Of a stretch of 64,000 nt of DNA, positions 40,990 to 59,162 are shown piece after piece. Positions within the stretch are counted from its first letter, which is position 1. Every line of letters starts with the position of its first letter. The notes under the pieces were generated by a model, which did not search any database, was not told the origin of the DNA, and was given only the letters and a program-made list of their open reading frames with translations. Both the position numbers and the translations under genes were made by a program. Source of the stretch: Haloarchaeobius sp. HME9146 (GTDB taxonomy: Archaea > Halobacteriota > Halobacteria > Halobacteriales > Natrialbaceae); NCBI RefSeq assembly GCF_025399835.1, contig NZ_JAODVR010000001.1:2046001-2110000 (forward strand). Direction: 5' to 3'.

Positions 40990-41147
40990 AAGCCGAAACC
41001 GGGCGAGACCCCGACGGGCTGAACCACCTGCCACGAGAGCGGAAGCTATTACACGGCCTTCTCTGAATATTTGGCTGTCATCTTCAGGGCCTTAGCTGCG
41101 GGACTGTCCCGGAGCGGGCCGGTCGCCGGCCGAGACCCGGCGTTCGC

Positions 41148-42116
41148 ATGACCATCGACGCCACGACCATCCGGACCGCAGTCGCATCGATCTCGGACGA
41201 CTACGAACTTCACGAGGAGGTACGACGGACGCACCGTCACCTTGTCTACGAGGTCACAATCGACGGTCGCCGCGCCGTCTGCAAGCACGTCCTCGAGGAC
41301 GCCGACCGGGAACCACTCGCCCGGGAGACGATGATACTGAAGGGTGTCGAGCGCTCGACCGATCTTTCACTCCCGACCGTCCTCGGTGCTGGGGATGGCT
41401 TCGCCGTCTTCTCCTGGGTCGCCGGCGAGCCATTCCACGATGACGTTCCTCAGTCCCGACAGGAGACTCGGCTTCGAACGCTCGGTCGCGCACTCGCCCA
41501 CCTACACAACTCGACAGCGGACTGGTTCGATGGGTTCGGCTCCCTCACGACCGACAGTGACGACCGACTTCAGGTCGAGAACCCTTCGCCCTGGGGCGAG
41601 TGCTGGGAGGCCCTCGTCGACGACTGGCTCGACAGACTCGCCGGGACGCCCCACGAGGACCTTCGGGACGCCATCTGCGAAGCCACTCGTCGCGCGACCG
41701 ACCGCGGGTGGTTCGACGATGTAGAGCCGGTCCTCACCCACGCCGACGCCGGTCCCGCTAACGTCCAGTTCACCGACACCGACGAAGCGCTGCTCGTCGA
41801 CTGGGAAGGAGCCATGGCATTCCCCGGGGAGTACGACATAGCGAGGGCCTGTACCGACTTCTTCGACTTGCCTCACGCCGTCGCTTCGGGAACGCTCCGG
41901 GAAGCCCTGTTCGATGGGTACCGGGACATCGCGTCGCTTCCGCCGCGCTCTCACCGACGACGATGCCTGTACAGGGCGACGCTGACGGCGAAGTTCCTCC
42001 CCGGTGGCGTTCGCGCTGCCGATGCGGGCCACATCGACGAGGACCCAGCCGAGTTCCGCGAAGCGCTCAGAACCTACGCCTGGCGGCAGCTGGAGGCCGT
42101 GAACGCGGAATTCTGA
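41148..42116 (+). CDS. Aminoglycoside phosphotransferase (APH/ChoK) family kinase
   Basis: A 322-residue small-molecule-kinase-like protein. An ATP-Lys candidate is in AVCKHVLED, the Brenner motif is HADAGPANVQF (catalytic Asp), and the metal-binding Asp is in LLVDWEGAMAFPGEYD. The family phosphorylates diverse small molecules; homoserine, choline or aminoglycosides cannot be separated by sequence. Its stop lies 30 nt before the left inverted repeat of the recombinase element. Confidence 0.85.
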   Translation: MTIDATTIRTAVASISDDYELHEEVRRTHRHLVYEVTIDGRRAVCKHVLEDADREPLARETMILKGVERSTDLSLPTVLGAGDGFAVFSWVAGEPFHDDVPQSRQETRLRTLGRALAHLHNSTADWFDGFGSLTTDSDDRLQVENPSPWGECWEALVDDWLDRLAGTPHEDLRDAICEATRRATDRGWFDDVEPVLTHADAGPANVQFTDTDEALLVDWEGAMAFPGEYDIARACTDFFDLPHAVASGTLREALFDGYRDIASLPPRSHRRRCLYRATLTAKFLPGGVRAADAGHIDEDPAEFREALRTYAWRQLEAVNAEF

Positions 42117-42145
42117 CTCGGCCGATTCTGGATTCGGGCACCCCA

Positions 42146-42174
42146 ATTCTGTATAGCGAGATTTGGTTTACGAG
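42146..42174 (+). repeat. Left 29-nt inverted repeat (recombination-site-like)
   Basis: Begins attctgtatagcga and ends tttacgag, with a central seven bases gatttgg. The reverse complement of 44759-44787 has the same 14-nt and 8-nt arms but a different centre (catagaa). The two-arm, variable-spacer layout resembles a tyrosine-recombinase core site. Confidence 0.7.
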
Positions 42175-42242
42175 ACTGGTGTCGAACACCGAACAGTGGC
42201 GAGATTCGATGAAGCAGAATCGAGTGTATCCGAAAGATCGAC

Positions 42243-43280
42243 TCAGAGCAGGGAGTAGACGTTCGCCTCGTACACTTTGCGGACTCGGTCGCCCCAGTTG
42301 TGGGTGTACGTGTCGATGATGTCGCTCGCCACGTCGCCCCGGAGGTACTTGACGATGCCACGGTCGCCGGTTCGGTCCCGCAGATGCGTGGTGAAGAAGT
42401 GCCGGAAGTAGTGCGGGGTCACGTTCTCGGCGGCCCCACCCCCCGTTCGGTACCAGCCGTGCTCCCTGGCGTGGGTCTCGACGATGTGGCGCACGCCCTG
42501 GGGGGTGATTCGTTCGCCCCAGTCGCTCGACGTCGAGCAGAACAGCGGCTCTGCGGGCGATACCGCGTCAGGGCGGATCGCCAGCCACGCCACGAGCACC
42601 CGCTTCAGTTCGTCGTCGACCGGAACGACGGTCGAGCGCTTTCGCTTGTTGGCCGCGGTCCGCTCTTCCCCGTGGTACTCCTCGCCGTGGGCCGGTTCTG
42701 CCGGGACGAAGATGGAGTCCGGGCGGCCCTCCAGCTGGACACGCCCACCGAGGTCGTACTCGGATTCGATAGCCGGAACCGCCAGCGAGATGTCTCGCAG
42801 GTCCAGATTACAGAGTTCGCCGACACGCATCCCGGTCTTGAGGAGGCTCACGACCAGCGCACGCTCCAGCGGATGGCCGATATCGGCGACGAAGCCCCGC
42901 ATCTGGTCGACGGTGAGCTCCCGTCTCGTCGGGTCCTTGTCGATGGATTCGTTCATCTCCTCGACGACCAGCGCCATGGGGTTCGACTCGAACTCACCGA
43001 CCTGGGTCATGTAGGCGTAGAACCGGTGGACGTAGGAGGCGTAGGAGGCGACCGTGCTCGGTGCGTGCTCGCCTCGCAGGGAGTGGACCCACGCCATGCA
43101 CTGTCGTCTATCCGCGTCTGCTGGCGTCATCGACCCGCCGCTGGGCCCTGATTCGGGGTCGGCCAGGAACGCCTCGAACCGCCGCAGGACCCGTTCGTAG
43201 GCCTCCTGCGTCCGTTTCGCCTTCCCGTGGTAGGTCTGGTCCTCGAGGAAGTACGCGACGGAATCGGCCATCTCAGGCAT
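42243..43280 (-). CDS. Tyrosine recombinase / site-specific integrase
   Basis: A 345-residue phage-integrase-family protein. The N-terminal SAM-like core-binding domain spans about residues 5-125 (TQEAYERVLRRFEAFLAD, STVASYASYVHRFYAYM). The catalytic domain retains the conserved residues: Arg in LLKTGMRVGELCNLDLRD, the H-x-x-R box in TPHYFRHFFTTHL, and the nucleophile Tyr in DTYTHNWGDRV. The start is either 43280 (MPEMADS) or 43271 (MADSVAYF); the first overlaps the upstream gene by eight bases. It would cut and join the flanking repeats or related sites. Confidence 0.88.
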   Translation of the reverse strand: MPEMADSVAYFLEDQTYHGKAKRTQEAYERVLRRFEAFLADPESGPSGGSMTPADADRRQCMAWVHSLRGEHAPSTVASYASYVHRFYAYMTQVGEFESNPMALVVEEMNESIDKDPTRRELTVDQMRGFVADIGHPLERALVVSLLKTGMRVGELCNLDLRDISLAVPAIESEYDLGGRVQLEGRPDSIFVPAEPAHGEEYHGEERTAANKRKRSTVVPVDDELKRVLVAWLAIRPDAVSPAEPLFCSTSSDWGERITPQGVRHIVETHAREHGWYRTGGGAAENVTPHYFRHFFTTHLRDRTGDRGIVKYLRGDVASDIIDTYTHNWGDRVRKVYEANVYSLL

Positions 43281-43683
43281 CCTCTGCCGGCACGTAGCCG
43301 CCGTCTCGACCGCTGTACCTGACGCGTCCAGCGGCCTGAAGGTCCTGGAGCGCGCTGTCGAGGCGGTCCTCGATGTCATCACTCACCGCGGCCAGCAGTT
43401 CGTCCCAGGTACAGGGGCCCTCGGCAGAGTGGAGGATATCGACGACGCGTTCGTCGAGATCGCCGCCTTCTGAGTCACCCGATACGGGGTCACTCTGGTC
43501 CCCTTCGGCCCCACTATCGGGTGAGTCGGGCAGGTCGAACTTGCGTCGGCCCGCCTGGACCATCGCCCGGACGAACTCGCTCTGGCTCATGTCGAGCTCG
43601 TCGGCGTGGTCGGCCCACTCCGCTTTCTGGTAGCCCGGCACGTAGGTCTTCACCACCGACCGACTCGTGTCCTGTTGGCTCAT
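43273..43683 (-). CDS. DUF5805-type small protein, partner of the recombinase
   Basis: A 136-residue protein. The N-terminal part (SVVKTYVPGYQKAEWADHAD, then DMSQSEFVRAMVQAGRRKFD) looks like a ribbon-helix-helix-related DNA-binding segment; after an acidic linker the C-terminal third (WDELLAAVSDDIEDRLDSAL, GRVRYSGRDGGYV) resembles a winged helix. As far as I recall this is the DUF5805 family, which often precedes integrases in haloarchaea. It overlaps the recombinase start and probably regulates it or helps recombination. A tatatc box lies about 27 nt upstream. Confidence 0.7.
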   Translation of the reverse strand: MSQQDTSRSVVKTYVPGYQKAEWADHADELDMSQSEFVRAMVQAGRRKFDLPDSPDSGAEGDQSDPVSGDSEGGDLDERVVDILHSAEGPCTWDELLAAVSDDIEDRLDSALQDLQAAGRVRYSGRDGGYVPAEDA

Positions 43684-44019
43684 CGACACCCCTCAGTAGA
43701 CCCTGATATATCATGCTCAACCCACCACGTCTGGAAGGGTGTCTTCCCCGGTCGAACCCCAGGGGTTGCGTGCTTCGATTGGGGCTGTAGGCACACCCCA
43801 TTTCGCAGCAACATTTGCTGCTTGTTTGTTGGTGTGGTCGGTGACCCATTCGGATGAGTATGCGACCGAGTCCGTGAGTCACTGAATCGGCTCGCTCGAC
43901 GTTGCATCAGGCCCGCCGCGAGAGCAGAGCGAGACCGGCCGGAAACGATATCAGATTTCTGGTAGCTCCTCGACATGCGGCTCTGGCAAGACCGACTCAC
44001 TGCCGATACTTCAATGTGT

Positions 44020-44059
44020 CCCACAGTTCGGGATAAGAGCCCTTATCTTCCTGTGTGGG
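44020..44059. repeat. Nested dyad-symmetric element
   Basis: Two pairs of arms are concentric about the same centre: CCCACA with TGTGGG (44020-44025, 44054-44059) and GATAAG with CTTATC (44032-44037, 44042-44047). Internal loops are six bases on each side and the apical loop is AGCC. The symmetry would suit a dimeric protein or a recombinase accessory site. Confidence 0.55.
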
Positions 44060-44677
44060 TCTGCATTATCGACGCTAAGACATACTTATCCAGATTATTG
44101 GGTCTGTATTTTGGGCCATGTAGTACTACAATCCCACATACAATGATAGGAATCTGTTGTCCCGGTAGCGACGAATCTCGAGGTTGGTTCGGTGAATCCG
44201 TGCATGGTCGTCAGCGCACAGGCCACGGAAATATATTTGTTAACTAGTAGATTCGGGTCGGCCCTCGTGCTGACGTGTGCGCACCGAGGGCGATTTCGTT
44301 GTGTTCGTCGCGCAGACTGCCGACACCAGATCGGCCCTAGTACCTGGACCGGTGAAGGGTAGGTCTCGAAGACGTCTGGTCCCCGGTCGGCAGCCTACTC
44401 CGATGGGCGAACTCGTTGAGAGTTCGAACCGATTGGAGCCACACCACAGTTGGCCAGCCGAGTTCGTTTTCCAATCGAGCCCTAGGGGGCGTCGGAACCT
44501 CCCGACGTGCAGAACAGAATCTGGGCGTGAATAGAGCGATGCCACAGAGCGATTGCCATACCCCCGAGTTCGCCGTTGAATGGGCCCACTGCTACTCTCG
44601 ACAATCACTTCTTCTCCCCATCGCCGGGGCTAGAGCGCGTTTTCTAGCTTGTTTCGCTCCTTTCTGCGCTCTCCCGA

Positions 44678-44710
44678 AGAAACCACATAGCGGCCAACTG
44701 AGCGGTTTCT
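44678..44710. repeat. 7-bp inverted repeat near the right end of the element
   Basis: Perfect arms AGAAACC (44678-44684) and GGTTTCT (44704-44710), separated by 19 nt, about 50 nt inside the right terminal repeat. Confidence 0.45.
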
Positions 44711-44758
44711 GGGGCGTTAGCGTCGGTCCAGCGCCCAGCAAGCTCGTCGCAGTACGGA

Positions 44759-44787
44759 CTCGTAAATTCTATGTCGCTATACAGAAT
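44759..44787 (-). repeat. Right 29-nt inverted repeat
   Basis: Reverse complement of the left repeat with 24/29 identity; the differences cluster in the centre. It ends 39 nt before the stop codon of the convergent HisG-like gene. Confidence 0.7.
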
Positions 44788-44826
44788 GCCGCCCCGGACA
44801 GACGAAAAATCGATTCCAGAAACCGG

Positions 44827-45732
44827 TCAGTTCACGGCCAGTGCCGTATCGAGTTCGGCCGTTTCGAACAGCGTCTTGACGGCCTCGGACTCGGGCGTCG
44901 ACTCGGCCTCGTTCTCCATCAGCACCGTTTCGCTCGGGAACAGGCGCGTCCCGAGTTCCAGCCCGTGGTCGCGGGCGGTCGACCCCGTCATCGTGAGATA
45001 GACGCCGGCACCGACATCGGCGATGGCGGCCTCCTCCTCCCGACCCTCTTCGGGGTACGTGAAGTCGACGTTCGCGATAGCGTCGGTCCCGAGGACGGCC
45101 TCGACCAGGCGCTCGTACCGCGGCGAGATACAGAGCTCGCCCTCGTAGCGGTCGATGAACTCCCGGGTCGGGTTCCCACCACCGAAGTCGTCGAGCGTGT
45201 CGGGCGTCGCCATCAGCGTGTGATACACGGTATCGCCCAGGCCCGTGACGACTCGAACGTCCGTGTCGTGCGGGTCGATGCGGGTGTTGATGTCGTCGAT
45301 GGAGCCGAGCGGTTCCGGACGGAGGCCGACGACCTCCTCCAGGACGAGGTCGGCACTGTCGAACCCGAGCGCGAACGAATGGGTGCGGAGCGCCCGGAAC
45401 GGCTCCTCGCGGCCGACGAGCTGGACGTCGTAGCCGTCGGCGGAGATGGTCACACTGTCGAAGACGACGCGCCGGGGCATCCCTTCGCGGTCGTCCCGGA
45501 GGAGGGTGAACTCTGGGCGATGATGGGCCGACAGGTCGCTGTATTCCGCGAGGCGCTCGTAGACGTCGCGGGCGTCGGCTTTCTTGCCCTTCGTGATCGC
45601 CTTCTCGTAGCGCAGGGTGGAGATGATCTCGTCGGCCACCTCCGTCGCACCCACGCGGTTCGCGATGCGTTCGAGGACGGCCTCGAGGGGCCGCCCCTTG
45701 CGTGGCACCGCGACAGCTATCGTGTCGGCCAT
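44827..45732 (-). CDS. Conserved protein with HisG-like N-terminus, function unknown
   Basis: A 301-residue protein that begins MADTIAVAVPRKGRPLEAV, reminiscent of the start of ATP phosphoribosyltransferase and related periplasmic-binding-like folds. The rest, including ALGFDSADLVLEEVVGLRPE and YEGELCISPRYERLVEAVLG, does not clearly match HisG, so I do not give that name. It starts 40 nt after the acidic coiled-coil gene's stop on the same strand, so the two could be co-transcribed. Confidence 0.5.
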   Translation of the reverse strand: MADTIAVAVPRKGRPLEAVLERIANRVGATEVADEIISTLRYEKAITKGKKADARDVYERLAEYSDLSAHHRPEFTLLRDDREGMPRRVVFDSVTISADGYDVQLVGREEPFRALRTHSFALGFDSADLVLEEVVGLRPEPLGSIDDINTRIDPHDTDVRVVTGLGDTVYHTLMATPDTLDDFGGGNPTREFIDRYEGELCISPRYERLVEAVLGTDAIANVDFTYPEEGREEEAAIADVGAGVYLTMTGSTARDHGLELGTRLFPSETVLMENEAESTPESEAVKTLFETAELDTALAVN

Positions 45733-45772
45733 TTAGCGGAGGAACGGCCCGCCGGGTGAAAACAGATTCGTT

Positions 45773-47524
45773 TCAGGAGAACATCTCGCCGAGCTGGTCG
45801 CGCCAGTCCTGAATGGCGGTGACCTCCTCGTCGAGTTGCTCCACGTCGTCCTCGAGCGCGTCGAGGTCCTCCCGGAGGATGTCGATGTCCTCGCGGGTCG
45901 AATCGACGGCCTCGCTGTTGTCCTCGGTCGCCTCCCGGACCGACTCGACCTCCTCGTCGAGGGCCTCGGTGCGCTCGTCGAACTCGCCACGGAGGTCGTC
46001 GACCTCGCCGTCGAGTGCAAGCAGGTCCTCGTCGACGCTGTCGACGCGCTCGTCCAGCGCGTTCAGGTCGGACTCGACGGCACCGATGGACTCCTGTGCC
46101 GAGGCGATGTCGCCAGTCACCGTCTCCAGCTCCTCGTCGTGGGACTCGACGGACTGACGGACCTCGGTGACCTCGTCACGGAGCGCGGTGACCTCTGCCT
46201 GGTAGTCGTCGAGCAGCTGCTGGGCCGTCCCCTCGTCGTCGAGGAACTCCTCGAGCGCACCCGTGTACGCGGCGAGTTCTTCGACGCGAGACTGGAGGTG
46301 TTCGACCTTGGCAACGTCGGTTCCCGCGGGTTCGAGGTCGAGTTCTTCCCGGAGTGCGTCGCGGTCGGCTTCGGAGACCGAGTCCTCGCGGAGTTCGTCC
46401 AGTAGTGCGCTCACGACGCTCTCGGGTGCGACGTGCGTGACTGCATCGTCGGTCTCGTCTTCGTCATCCGTGTCCGCCTCGACTCCGTCCTCGTCGAGTT
46501 CGGGCTCCGTCTCCTCGGACTCGATTTCTTCCTCGGTGTCGAGGTCGGCGGCTTCGTCCTCGGATTCGGATTCGCTCTCGTCGGCGTCTGCCGTGTCCTC
46601 GGCGTCCGCGGCCTCGTCGAGTTCGCCGGTCGGCGCCTCGGCTTCGAGCTCCTCTTCGGCGTCGGCTTCGAGGTCGGTTTCCGCGTCTGCGTCGTCCTCC
46701 TCGGTCGTCTCGTCAGCCTCCTCGACAGCGGACTCGGCCTCCGCGTCGACGACGATGTCCTCGTCGTCGAATGCCTCCTCCTCGGCCGGGTCGTCCACGT
46801 CGAGTTGTATCTCGGGGCCGTCCTCGGCATCGGCTTCGGCGTCGGCTTCCTCGCCGTACACCTCTTCTTCCGCCGCTTCGAGGTCGAGTTCGATACCGAG
46901 CCCGTCGCCCTCGTCGTCCGCCGGTGCCTCGGCTTCCGTGCTTTCCTCGTCGTCGAATCCGAGGTCTATATCGCCGGAGCCACCGACATCGTCGCCCGCC
47001 TCGGCCGCGGCTTCCTCGGGTTCGTCGTCCTCGTCGAGCCCGGGGATGTCGGATTCGCCCGAGAGCATGTCTTTGACGACCTGGTTGGAGTCGTCGGAGA
47101 CGATTTCGTCGATGGTCTCGTCCTGTTCTACCTCCTCGTCGCCAGCGTCGCCGTCCTCGTTCTCGACGTCCCAGATGCTCGGTTCGGTCAGGAACTTCGG
47201 GACCTCGTCCTGCCCGTCGATTCGGATGCCGTAGACGGTGACGAGCTCCTCGCCGGGTTCGAGGGTCCGGTGGAACTCGACGTGGTGGTCCTGGAAGGCG
47301 GTCCAGTTGTCGGACTCGTAATCGGGGTGGAACCCCACACCGTCCATCGGGAACTCCTCGGGGATGTCCTCGTGGAGTCGAATCGTCACTTCATCGTCAC
47401 GATTCGAGGTGATGACGAACCGTATCGCAGGGACGGGAAACTCGTCGGCTGCGAACGATTTCTCGACGGAGACACCGTCCGCGGCGACTTCGATTGTGGC
47501 GCTCGGATCGACCTCGCTACTCAT
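45773..47524 (-). CDS. Highly acidic protein with C-terminal coiled coil
   Basis: A 583-residue protein in three parts. Residues 1-110 look like a beta-rich globular domain (VPAIRFVITSNRDDEVTIRL, FHRTLEPGEELVTVYGIRI). Residues about 115-390 form a low-complexity linker dominated by Asp, Glu and Ala. The last 160 residues are a long predicted coiled coil (DVAKVEHLQSRVEELAAYTG; DEEVESVREATEDNSEAVDS). No signal or membrane helix is present. It may be a structural or scaffold protein. A TATA-like cctataaagg sits at leaderless distance. The family is unnamed to me. Confidence 0.65.
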   Translation of the reverse strand: MSSEVDPSATIEVAADGVSVEKSFAADEFPVPAIRFVITSNRDDEVTIRLHEDIPEEFPMDGVGFHPDYESDNWTAFQDHHVEFHRTLEPGEELVTVYGIRIDGQDEVPKFLTEPSIWDVENEDGDAGDEEVEQDETIDEIVSDDSNQVVKDMLSGESDIPGLDEDDEPEEAAAEAGDDVGGSGDIDLGFDDEESTEAEAPADDEGDGLGIELDLEAAEEEVYGEEADAEADAEDGPEIQLDVDDPAEEEAFDDEDIVVDAEAESAVEEADETTEEDDADAETDLEADAEEELEAEAPTGELDEAADAEDTADADESESESEDEAADLDTEEEIESEETEPELDEDGVEADTDDEDETDDAVTHVAPESVVSALLDELREDSVSEADRDALREELDLEPAGTDVAKVEHLQSRVEELAAYTGALEEFLDDEGTAQQLLDDYQAEVTALRDEVTEVRQSVESHDEELETVTGDIASAQESIGAVESDLNALDERVDSVDEDLLALDGEVDDLRGEFDERTEALDEEVESVREATEDNSEAVDSTREDIDILREDLDALEDDVEQLDEEVTAIQDWRDQLGEMFS

Positions 47525-58682: not shown

Positions 58683-59162
58683 CTCTCTTGGGATTTGGTT
58701 GTTCGGAACGCAATTCGGGGGCAGCCGGCGTTATCGGCTATCGGACGATATCGACTCCATGCCGAGGCGAACTGCGCCAGCTGGCTGGAAACAGGACGGG
58801 ATGGGCACGACTCGCGGGGTCGAGTTCGCTGCGGTGTGCCCGCCTCCCGTCAGAAAACGAATACGGTCTGCATGAACTACCTGTCCTGACGGTCACGTGC
58901 CCCGGTAAAAGCGGTTCGGGTGGTGTGTCAACTTCTGACAATCCGGGTCGCTTCACCCCCGGAATCGCACCTTCTGTTCGATTTTCCAACCAGTCTGTGT
59001 GGGCAAGTGGCGTCCTATCCCGAACAAATAAACTGTTTCTCGCTATATCAAATCGGGCTTGAATCTGGAAACAGCCGGGTGGTCGAAATCAGTCACGGAA
59101 ACAGGGAAAACGAGAGCGAGAACGGTTCAGGCCGGTGTCGGACCACCGGGCGAGGTAGCCAG
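58683..59162. other. Gene-free interval (480 nt)
   Basis: Several short frames are open but none shows protein-like composition or a plausible start. The right half (58970-59110) is AT-richer. It contains the hflX promoter at its left edge. I see no hairpin, repeat or RNA gene of note. Confidence 0.5.

Follow-up and report, generated by a model that had tools for sequence, protein, structure and literature searches.

Two inverted repeats framing a tyrosine recombinase gene between convergent neighbors raise the question of what kind of element they delimit. We examined such a locus in Haloarchaeobius sp. HME9146 within the window, the whole 64,000-nt stretch of DNA that was analyzed. A sequence-only reading of this DNA had offered three possibilities for the segment: an invertible switch, a new type of mobile unit with inverted ends, or a remnant. 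The recombinase, the small partner gene overlapping it, and the convergent neighbors that it had described were all present, and the locus was made up of the following features.

41148..42116, plus strand: left neighbor, an APH-family phosphotransferase gene; convergent and outside the module.
42146..42189, plus strand: S site L, with core ATTCTGTATAGCGA-GATTTGG-TTTACGAG and inner motif GGTGTCGAACACC at 42178-42190; nearly every haloarchaeal locus has an equivalent site 3' of its recombinase ortholog.
42243..43280, minus strand: Xer-like tyrosine recombinase, 345 aa from the ATG at 43280, which is the more likely start; a longer frame reaches 43382.
43273..43689, minus strand: partner gene P, with N-terminal RHH-like helices and a C-terminal DUF5805 (PF19121) winged-helix-like domain; overlaps the recombinase start.
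43755..43767, no strand: palindrome AACCCCAGGGGTT upstream of P, found in all Haloarchaeobius and also in Halorubellus.
44010..44022, minus strand: promoter-proximal motif TTCAATGTGTCCC, general form GGRTAGATTGAAG on the gene's strand.
44026..44053, no strand: C site, a candidate dif, GTTCGGGATAA-GAGCCC-TTATCTTCCTG; its outer dyad spans 44020-44059, CCCACAG..CTGTGTGGG.
44744..44787, minus strand: S site R, with its 29-nt core at 44759-44787 and its inner motif toward lower coordinates.
44827..45732, minus strand: right neighbor, HG, 301 aa, convergent; used as the orientation anchor.
59010..59053, minus strand: S site D, with its core at 59025-59053; upstream of hflX and facing the recombinase.

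The inverted repeat is a real biological feature. The left copy (42146-42174) and the reverse complement of the right copy (44759-44787) agreed at 24 of 29 positions across an intervening 2,584 nt, as had been noted from the sequence alone, while the best inverted 29-mer matches reached only 19 to 21 of 29 when the segment was Markov-shuffled 20 times. Within three mismatches, the repeat arms were found at just two places in the 4.19-Mb genome, L and R. The description of the repeats as recombinase-type sites with a variable spacer also held, but the repeat as first drawn was incomplete and a further copy had been missed. The two 29-nt repeats belong to a site of ∼44 nt, S, that is present in three copies and continues ∼15 nt inward into a conserved TCGRAC-like motif (logo, ATTnnRTATAGCRAnATRnRRTTTAYnWGT; inner motif, T-C-G-R-A-C near +37 to +43). 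The third copy, D, had a matrix score of 50.2, compared to 48.4 for L and 48.2 for R. All six Haloarchaeobius genomes have it, at a distance of ∼14 kb, and comparable outer sites were present in several other genera. D is flanked by hflX and a halocyanin gene and points the same way as R; recombination between R and D would excise 14.3 kb, volactin included.

The proposed tie between these sites and the recombinase was borne out by a search of other haloarchaeal genomes. An inward-facing pair of S sites surrounded an orthologous tyrosine recombinase in 68 of 80 named haloarchaeal loci (including Haloferax, Haloarcula, Natronomonas, Halorussus, Natrialba, Natrinema, and others), and a search outward from the gene found S, inverted around the recombinase, in every sampled Haloarchaeobius genome and in most other genomes. 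With a scoring matrix and a threshold of 20 bits, 3.8 Mb of loci contained 471 hits, compared to 4 in the reversed-sequence control. One site lay shortly 3' of the recombinase stop, usually by tens to a few hundred nucleotides, and the second usually ∼1 to 3 kb upstream of the recombinase start (20 to 37 kb in some genera). We considered whether genomes lacking R within 5 kb carry a provirus inserted at C and ruled this out, as C was not duplicated in five such genomes and three Halorussus have genes of similar size in the interval.

The recombinase was found in 111 of 111 good genomes of the host family and in 50 of 50 across the order, as a single-copy gene with a vertical tree (a few genomes have a second, adjacent copy). 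The catalytic residues R149, K209, H287, and R290 (numbered from the Met at 43271) were invariant in 120 of 120 orthologs and Tyr322 was kept in 119 of 120, which argues against a remnant. At position III, where His or Trp is usual, all 120 orthologs have Asp (Asp313). The protein is XerC/D/A-like but fell under every equivalog cutoff; against XerA_Arch (NF040815), it scored 103.9 bits, where the curated cutoff is 220 bits, and none of 61 haloarchaeal genomes had a XerA_Arch match above that cutoff. A Foldseek search with the recombinase model matched XerA, Tn1549 Int, and Cre. P was directly upstream of the recombinase in 119 of 120 cases and gave weak RHH/NikA-like and winged-helix matches across the family. 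Its model predicts two N-terminal helices and a C-terminal helix/strand domain, and a fold search with that model returned no significant match. The right neighbor had been called HisG-like, a label that did not survive: HG has no HisG or other Pfam/NCBIfam match. Rfam found nothing over 41000-46000.

The ∼1 kb between P and R had been described as gene-free. It does lack genes and is mostly fast diverging, but it contains conserved blocks near the promoter, among them the dyad C. The C pattern (GATAAR-N4-YTTATC within a narrow range of distances upstream of the operon) was present in 179 of 186 regions, compared to 23 of 186 in the control, and in the six Haloarchaeobius genomes C occurred at exactly one place per genome. 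Its core, ATAA-N6-TTAT, is that of the Pyrococcus abyssi dif site, ATTGGATATAATCGGCCTTATATCTAAA, whose left arm also matches the left arm of S, ATTnGATATA (comparison with PMC2958812); the GATAA-like elements are spaced 17 nt apart in S and 11 nt apart in C. Thus, the locus combines a universal, single-copy chromosomal tyrosine recombinase whose catalytic residues are intact except for the Asp at position III with one conserved dif-like site having inverted arms and a spacer of ∼6 nt (its uniqueness being established in the six Haloarchaeobius genomes), which are two features expected of a Xer/dif system. C overlaps the probable TATA region, and its conservation may partly reflect promoter or operator function. 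Here, the promoter motif sits ∼250 nt farther upstream of P than in most relatives. We also searched the gene-free DNA for a decayed second recombinase; there was no significant hit within the window, while such a decayed gene was present in 6 of 103 single-recombinase loci elsewhere. A dif site would also be expected near the replication terminus. The distance of the locus to orc genes varied: it is near an orc gene in one clade and not elsewhere, so proximity to oriC was rejected as a general rule, and no fixed terminus position emerged.

The same flanking genes were found at the locus across the family, with the segment in one of two orientations relative to HG: A, as in the window, or B. 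Mapped onto the recombinase tree, orientation in 97 labeled genes required 4 changes, compared to 26 for shuffled labels. It was fixed within genera, and the exceptions carry a second recombinase lineage. B orientation in the alpha lineage forms a single nested clade (support, 0.995), indicating that inversion occurred, but rarely; the segment has inverted a few times on an evolutionary scale. The 7-nt spacers of L and R were unmatched in 142 of 145 genomes and identical in 3, with 1.4 expected by chance. Sites that pair with each other should match, while a site that pairs only with its own copy on another chromosome has no need to. The differing spacers would thus normally block exchange between L and R, as the sequence-only reading had argued, and flips would be confined to the evolutionary scale.

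These data bear on the two remaining proposals of that reading. A freely invertible L-R switch would account for inverted sites flanking a recombinase and for a segment that is inverted between clades relative to the same flanks, but orientation was constant in all species of large genera, matching spacers were no more than the rare cases given above, and the segment ends without a gene or promoter that inversion would obviously switch; we regard such a switch as very improbable. We think it equally improbable that the segment is an IS-like or integrative mobile unit with inverted ends. A recombinase with inverted ends does suggest one, as do the S-like sites around an unrelated integrase on a different replicon. 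However, the neighborhood was the same chromosomal one across the family around a vertically inherited core gene, the sites are sometimes tens of kilobases from the gene, the segment ends without direct att repeats, the genome has no second copy, and differing insertion places were not found in relatives. Spread of the recombinase by plasmids or viruses was likewise ruled out: close orthologs were on two megaplasmid-size replicons, and beyond these there was only one weak IMG/VR hit.

A comparison of two Natrinema thermotolerans genomes indicates what C may do. From a point shortly upstream of the partner gene onward, strains A29 and DSM 11552 share 98.9% identity, but A29 (CP031304) has ∼46 kb of tailed-virus genes inserted upstream of the partner, absent from DSM 11552. 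This insert corresponds to an isolated virus, HJTV-4 (OP374082; circular, 46,173 bp), at 99.99% identity. We read all four att sites: attP, attL, and attR share GAGATAAATTCACT, which is C, and the unoccupied attB in DSM 11552 is one uninterrupted copy of C. Moreover, the HJTV-4 record is joined exactly at attP. No integrase is among the annotated HJTV-4 genes, and family searches covering many of its other proteins found none; many HJTV-4 proteins have no family match. A PF00589 scan of the whole 987-kb A29 record found no such protein in the provirus; its hits were the module recombinase, which lies immediately beyond attR, and a single gene at a distance of 600 kb. HJTV-4 therefore sits at a dif-like site with no integrase of its own recognized by family search, as elements of the IMEX kind do. 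It is the one case found of C occupied by a virus, and the C pattern with Natrinema flanks had no match in IMG/VR. Most simply, HJTV-4 would be integrated and excised at C by the host recombinase, though the virus might have an unrecognized integrase of its own.

Taken together, we consider the segment to be the haloarchaeal counterpart of a Xer/dif locus, with a dif in its own promoter and inward-facing accessory sites around it, and we give this reading a probability of about 0.52. It is probably a conserved chromosomal module that provides the missing chromosome-resolution system of haloarchaea, rather than a mobile element or a switch. The recombinase and its RHH/winged-helix partner would be expressed from an operon with the dif-like C (GATAA-N6-TTATC) in its promoter. 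The recombinase would synapse C with the identical site of a sister or fused chromosome and resolve the pair, and the integrase-less HJTV-4 would enter and leave the chromosome at C through the same enzyme. The S sites (L, R, and the outer D), with their related half-sites and one-sided inner motif facing C from both sides, most likely bind the recombinase, the partner, or both, and would be accessory and orientation setting. That the recombinase is catalytically active, that it acts at C, that C is a resolution site, and that S has this role are all predictions. Points that weigh against the reading are the low XerA_Arch score of the recombinase and its Asp at position III, the overlap of C with the probable TATA region, the single virus found at C, the varying distance to orc genes, the dispensable XerC-like genes of Haloferax volcanii, and the different spacing of the GATAA-like elements in S and C.

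Two other explanations have to be weighed against a resolution module. One is that S sites are operators only and C a promoter palindrome only, with HJTV-4 using an unrecognized integrase of its own and the recombinase serving some other core function. This fits a C that overlaps the promoter and keeps a constant spacing to P, and it fits the many HJTV-4 proteins without a family match. However, one S site always lies 3' of the recombinase stop, a position that requires no operator, S and C both resemble dif, the virus att falls exactly on C and adjoins the recombinase, and the provirus has no PF00589 protein; we therefore consider this explanation unlikely. The other is cassette exchange, in which recombinase cassettes replace one another between L and R as a pair of incompatible inverted sites, as in engineered RMCE, making the locus a slowly evolving selfish slot. 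Here, the differing L and R spacers would be expected. Two recombinase lineages (∼62% amino acid identity) share the slot within one genus, sometimes together with one decaying, and after an alpha/beta switch in one genus the right flank is ∼90% identical up to 24 to 43 bp from R. Homologous recombination through shared flanks accounts for the swaps equally well, though, and the differences in spacers between species would hinder exchange across species. Further, plasmid and virus collections hold no carriers except the megaplasmid-size replicons, and we judge cassette exchange to be less probable still. As a separate observation, some loci hold two divergent recombinase operons between S sites, either both intact or one decaying by frameshifts.

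The Xer-like resolution module resembles several known systems in part. Like the archaeal XerA/dif system of P. abyssi and the Sulfolobales (PMC2958812), it has a single chromosomal Xer-type recombinase and a candidate dif with two inverted arms around a 6-nt spacer, but its recombinase is below the XerA_Arch cutoff and has an obligatory RHH/winged-helix partner, this candidate dif is inside the operon promoter, and there are extra inverted S sites on both sides. In the Sulfolobales, dif is near xerA and is extended on one side by 13 bp of conserved sequence, and Sulfolobus solfataricus has two dif copies (PMC2958812); haloarchaea are absent from the main text of that paper. Xer-exploiting integrative elements, the CTX-phi type and IMEX, resemble HJTV-4 in that it lacks a recognizable integrase and sits at a dif-like site; HJTV-4 differs in having an archaeal host and a site that is the recombinase's own promoter, and its use of the host enzyme is presumed. 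We know of no XerS/difSL system in which two additional inverted sites flank the gene or in which there is an RHH partner, unlike the module. The likeness is in one recombinase with a dif-like site adjoining its gene, as described for streptococci and lactococci (PMC2731167).

A connection between haloarchaeal tyrosine recombinases and inversion has a precedent in haloviruses. The invertible region of phiCh1 Int1 (Rossler, 2004, cited in PMC8371274) resembles the module in tying such a recombinase to inversion. In phiCh1, inversion reportedly alters the expression of structural proteins, but in the module inversion is rare and the L and R spacers are unmatched. Four XerC-like genes of Haloferax volcanii, one of which may be the ortholog of the module recombinase, are dispensable (PMC7776575), and the same 2020 review describes the "involvement in termination of replication" of Haloferax XerC-like genes as "yet to be shown." A prior description of the module was not found in the openly accessible part of the literature that we searched, whose coverage is incomplete. 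We put forward tentatively, at somewhat under even odds, that XerA was replaced in haloarchaea by a Xer-like module with dif in its own promoter, inward S pairs setting the geometry of resolution, and haloviruses exploiting the module to integrate, an arrangement unlike any known Xer system. The matter bears on how polyploid haloarchaea resolve chromosome dimers and on whether any dif site exists in them, and the locus supplies a single recombinase family with a single partner, two site types defined exactly, and HJTV-4 as a natural substrate. If the reading is true, an archaeal virus borrows a host Xer-type enzyme.

Several minor observations concern sites and folds elsewhere. An unrelated integrase gene on another replicon is flanked by two inverted S-like sites that are 1.4 kb from each other and lack the inner motif. 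Other inverted S-like pairs enclose mixed content (an integrase, a ketopantoate reductase), mostly with the inner motif absent. Weaker sites of the form ATTyyRTATCGCAnTATGyGRTTTACTAC occur at many other places in several genomes, often as inverted pairs, and possibly represent another site class. Finally, chain 14 of PDB 9i5v, a 401-aa ribosome-bound protein named RaiA, matches the N-terminal SAM-like domain of the recombinase (E value, 1e-13).
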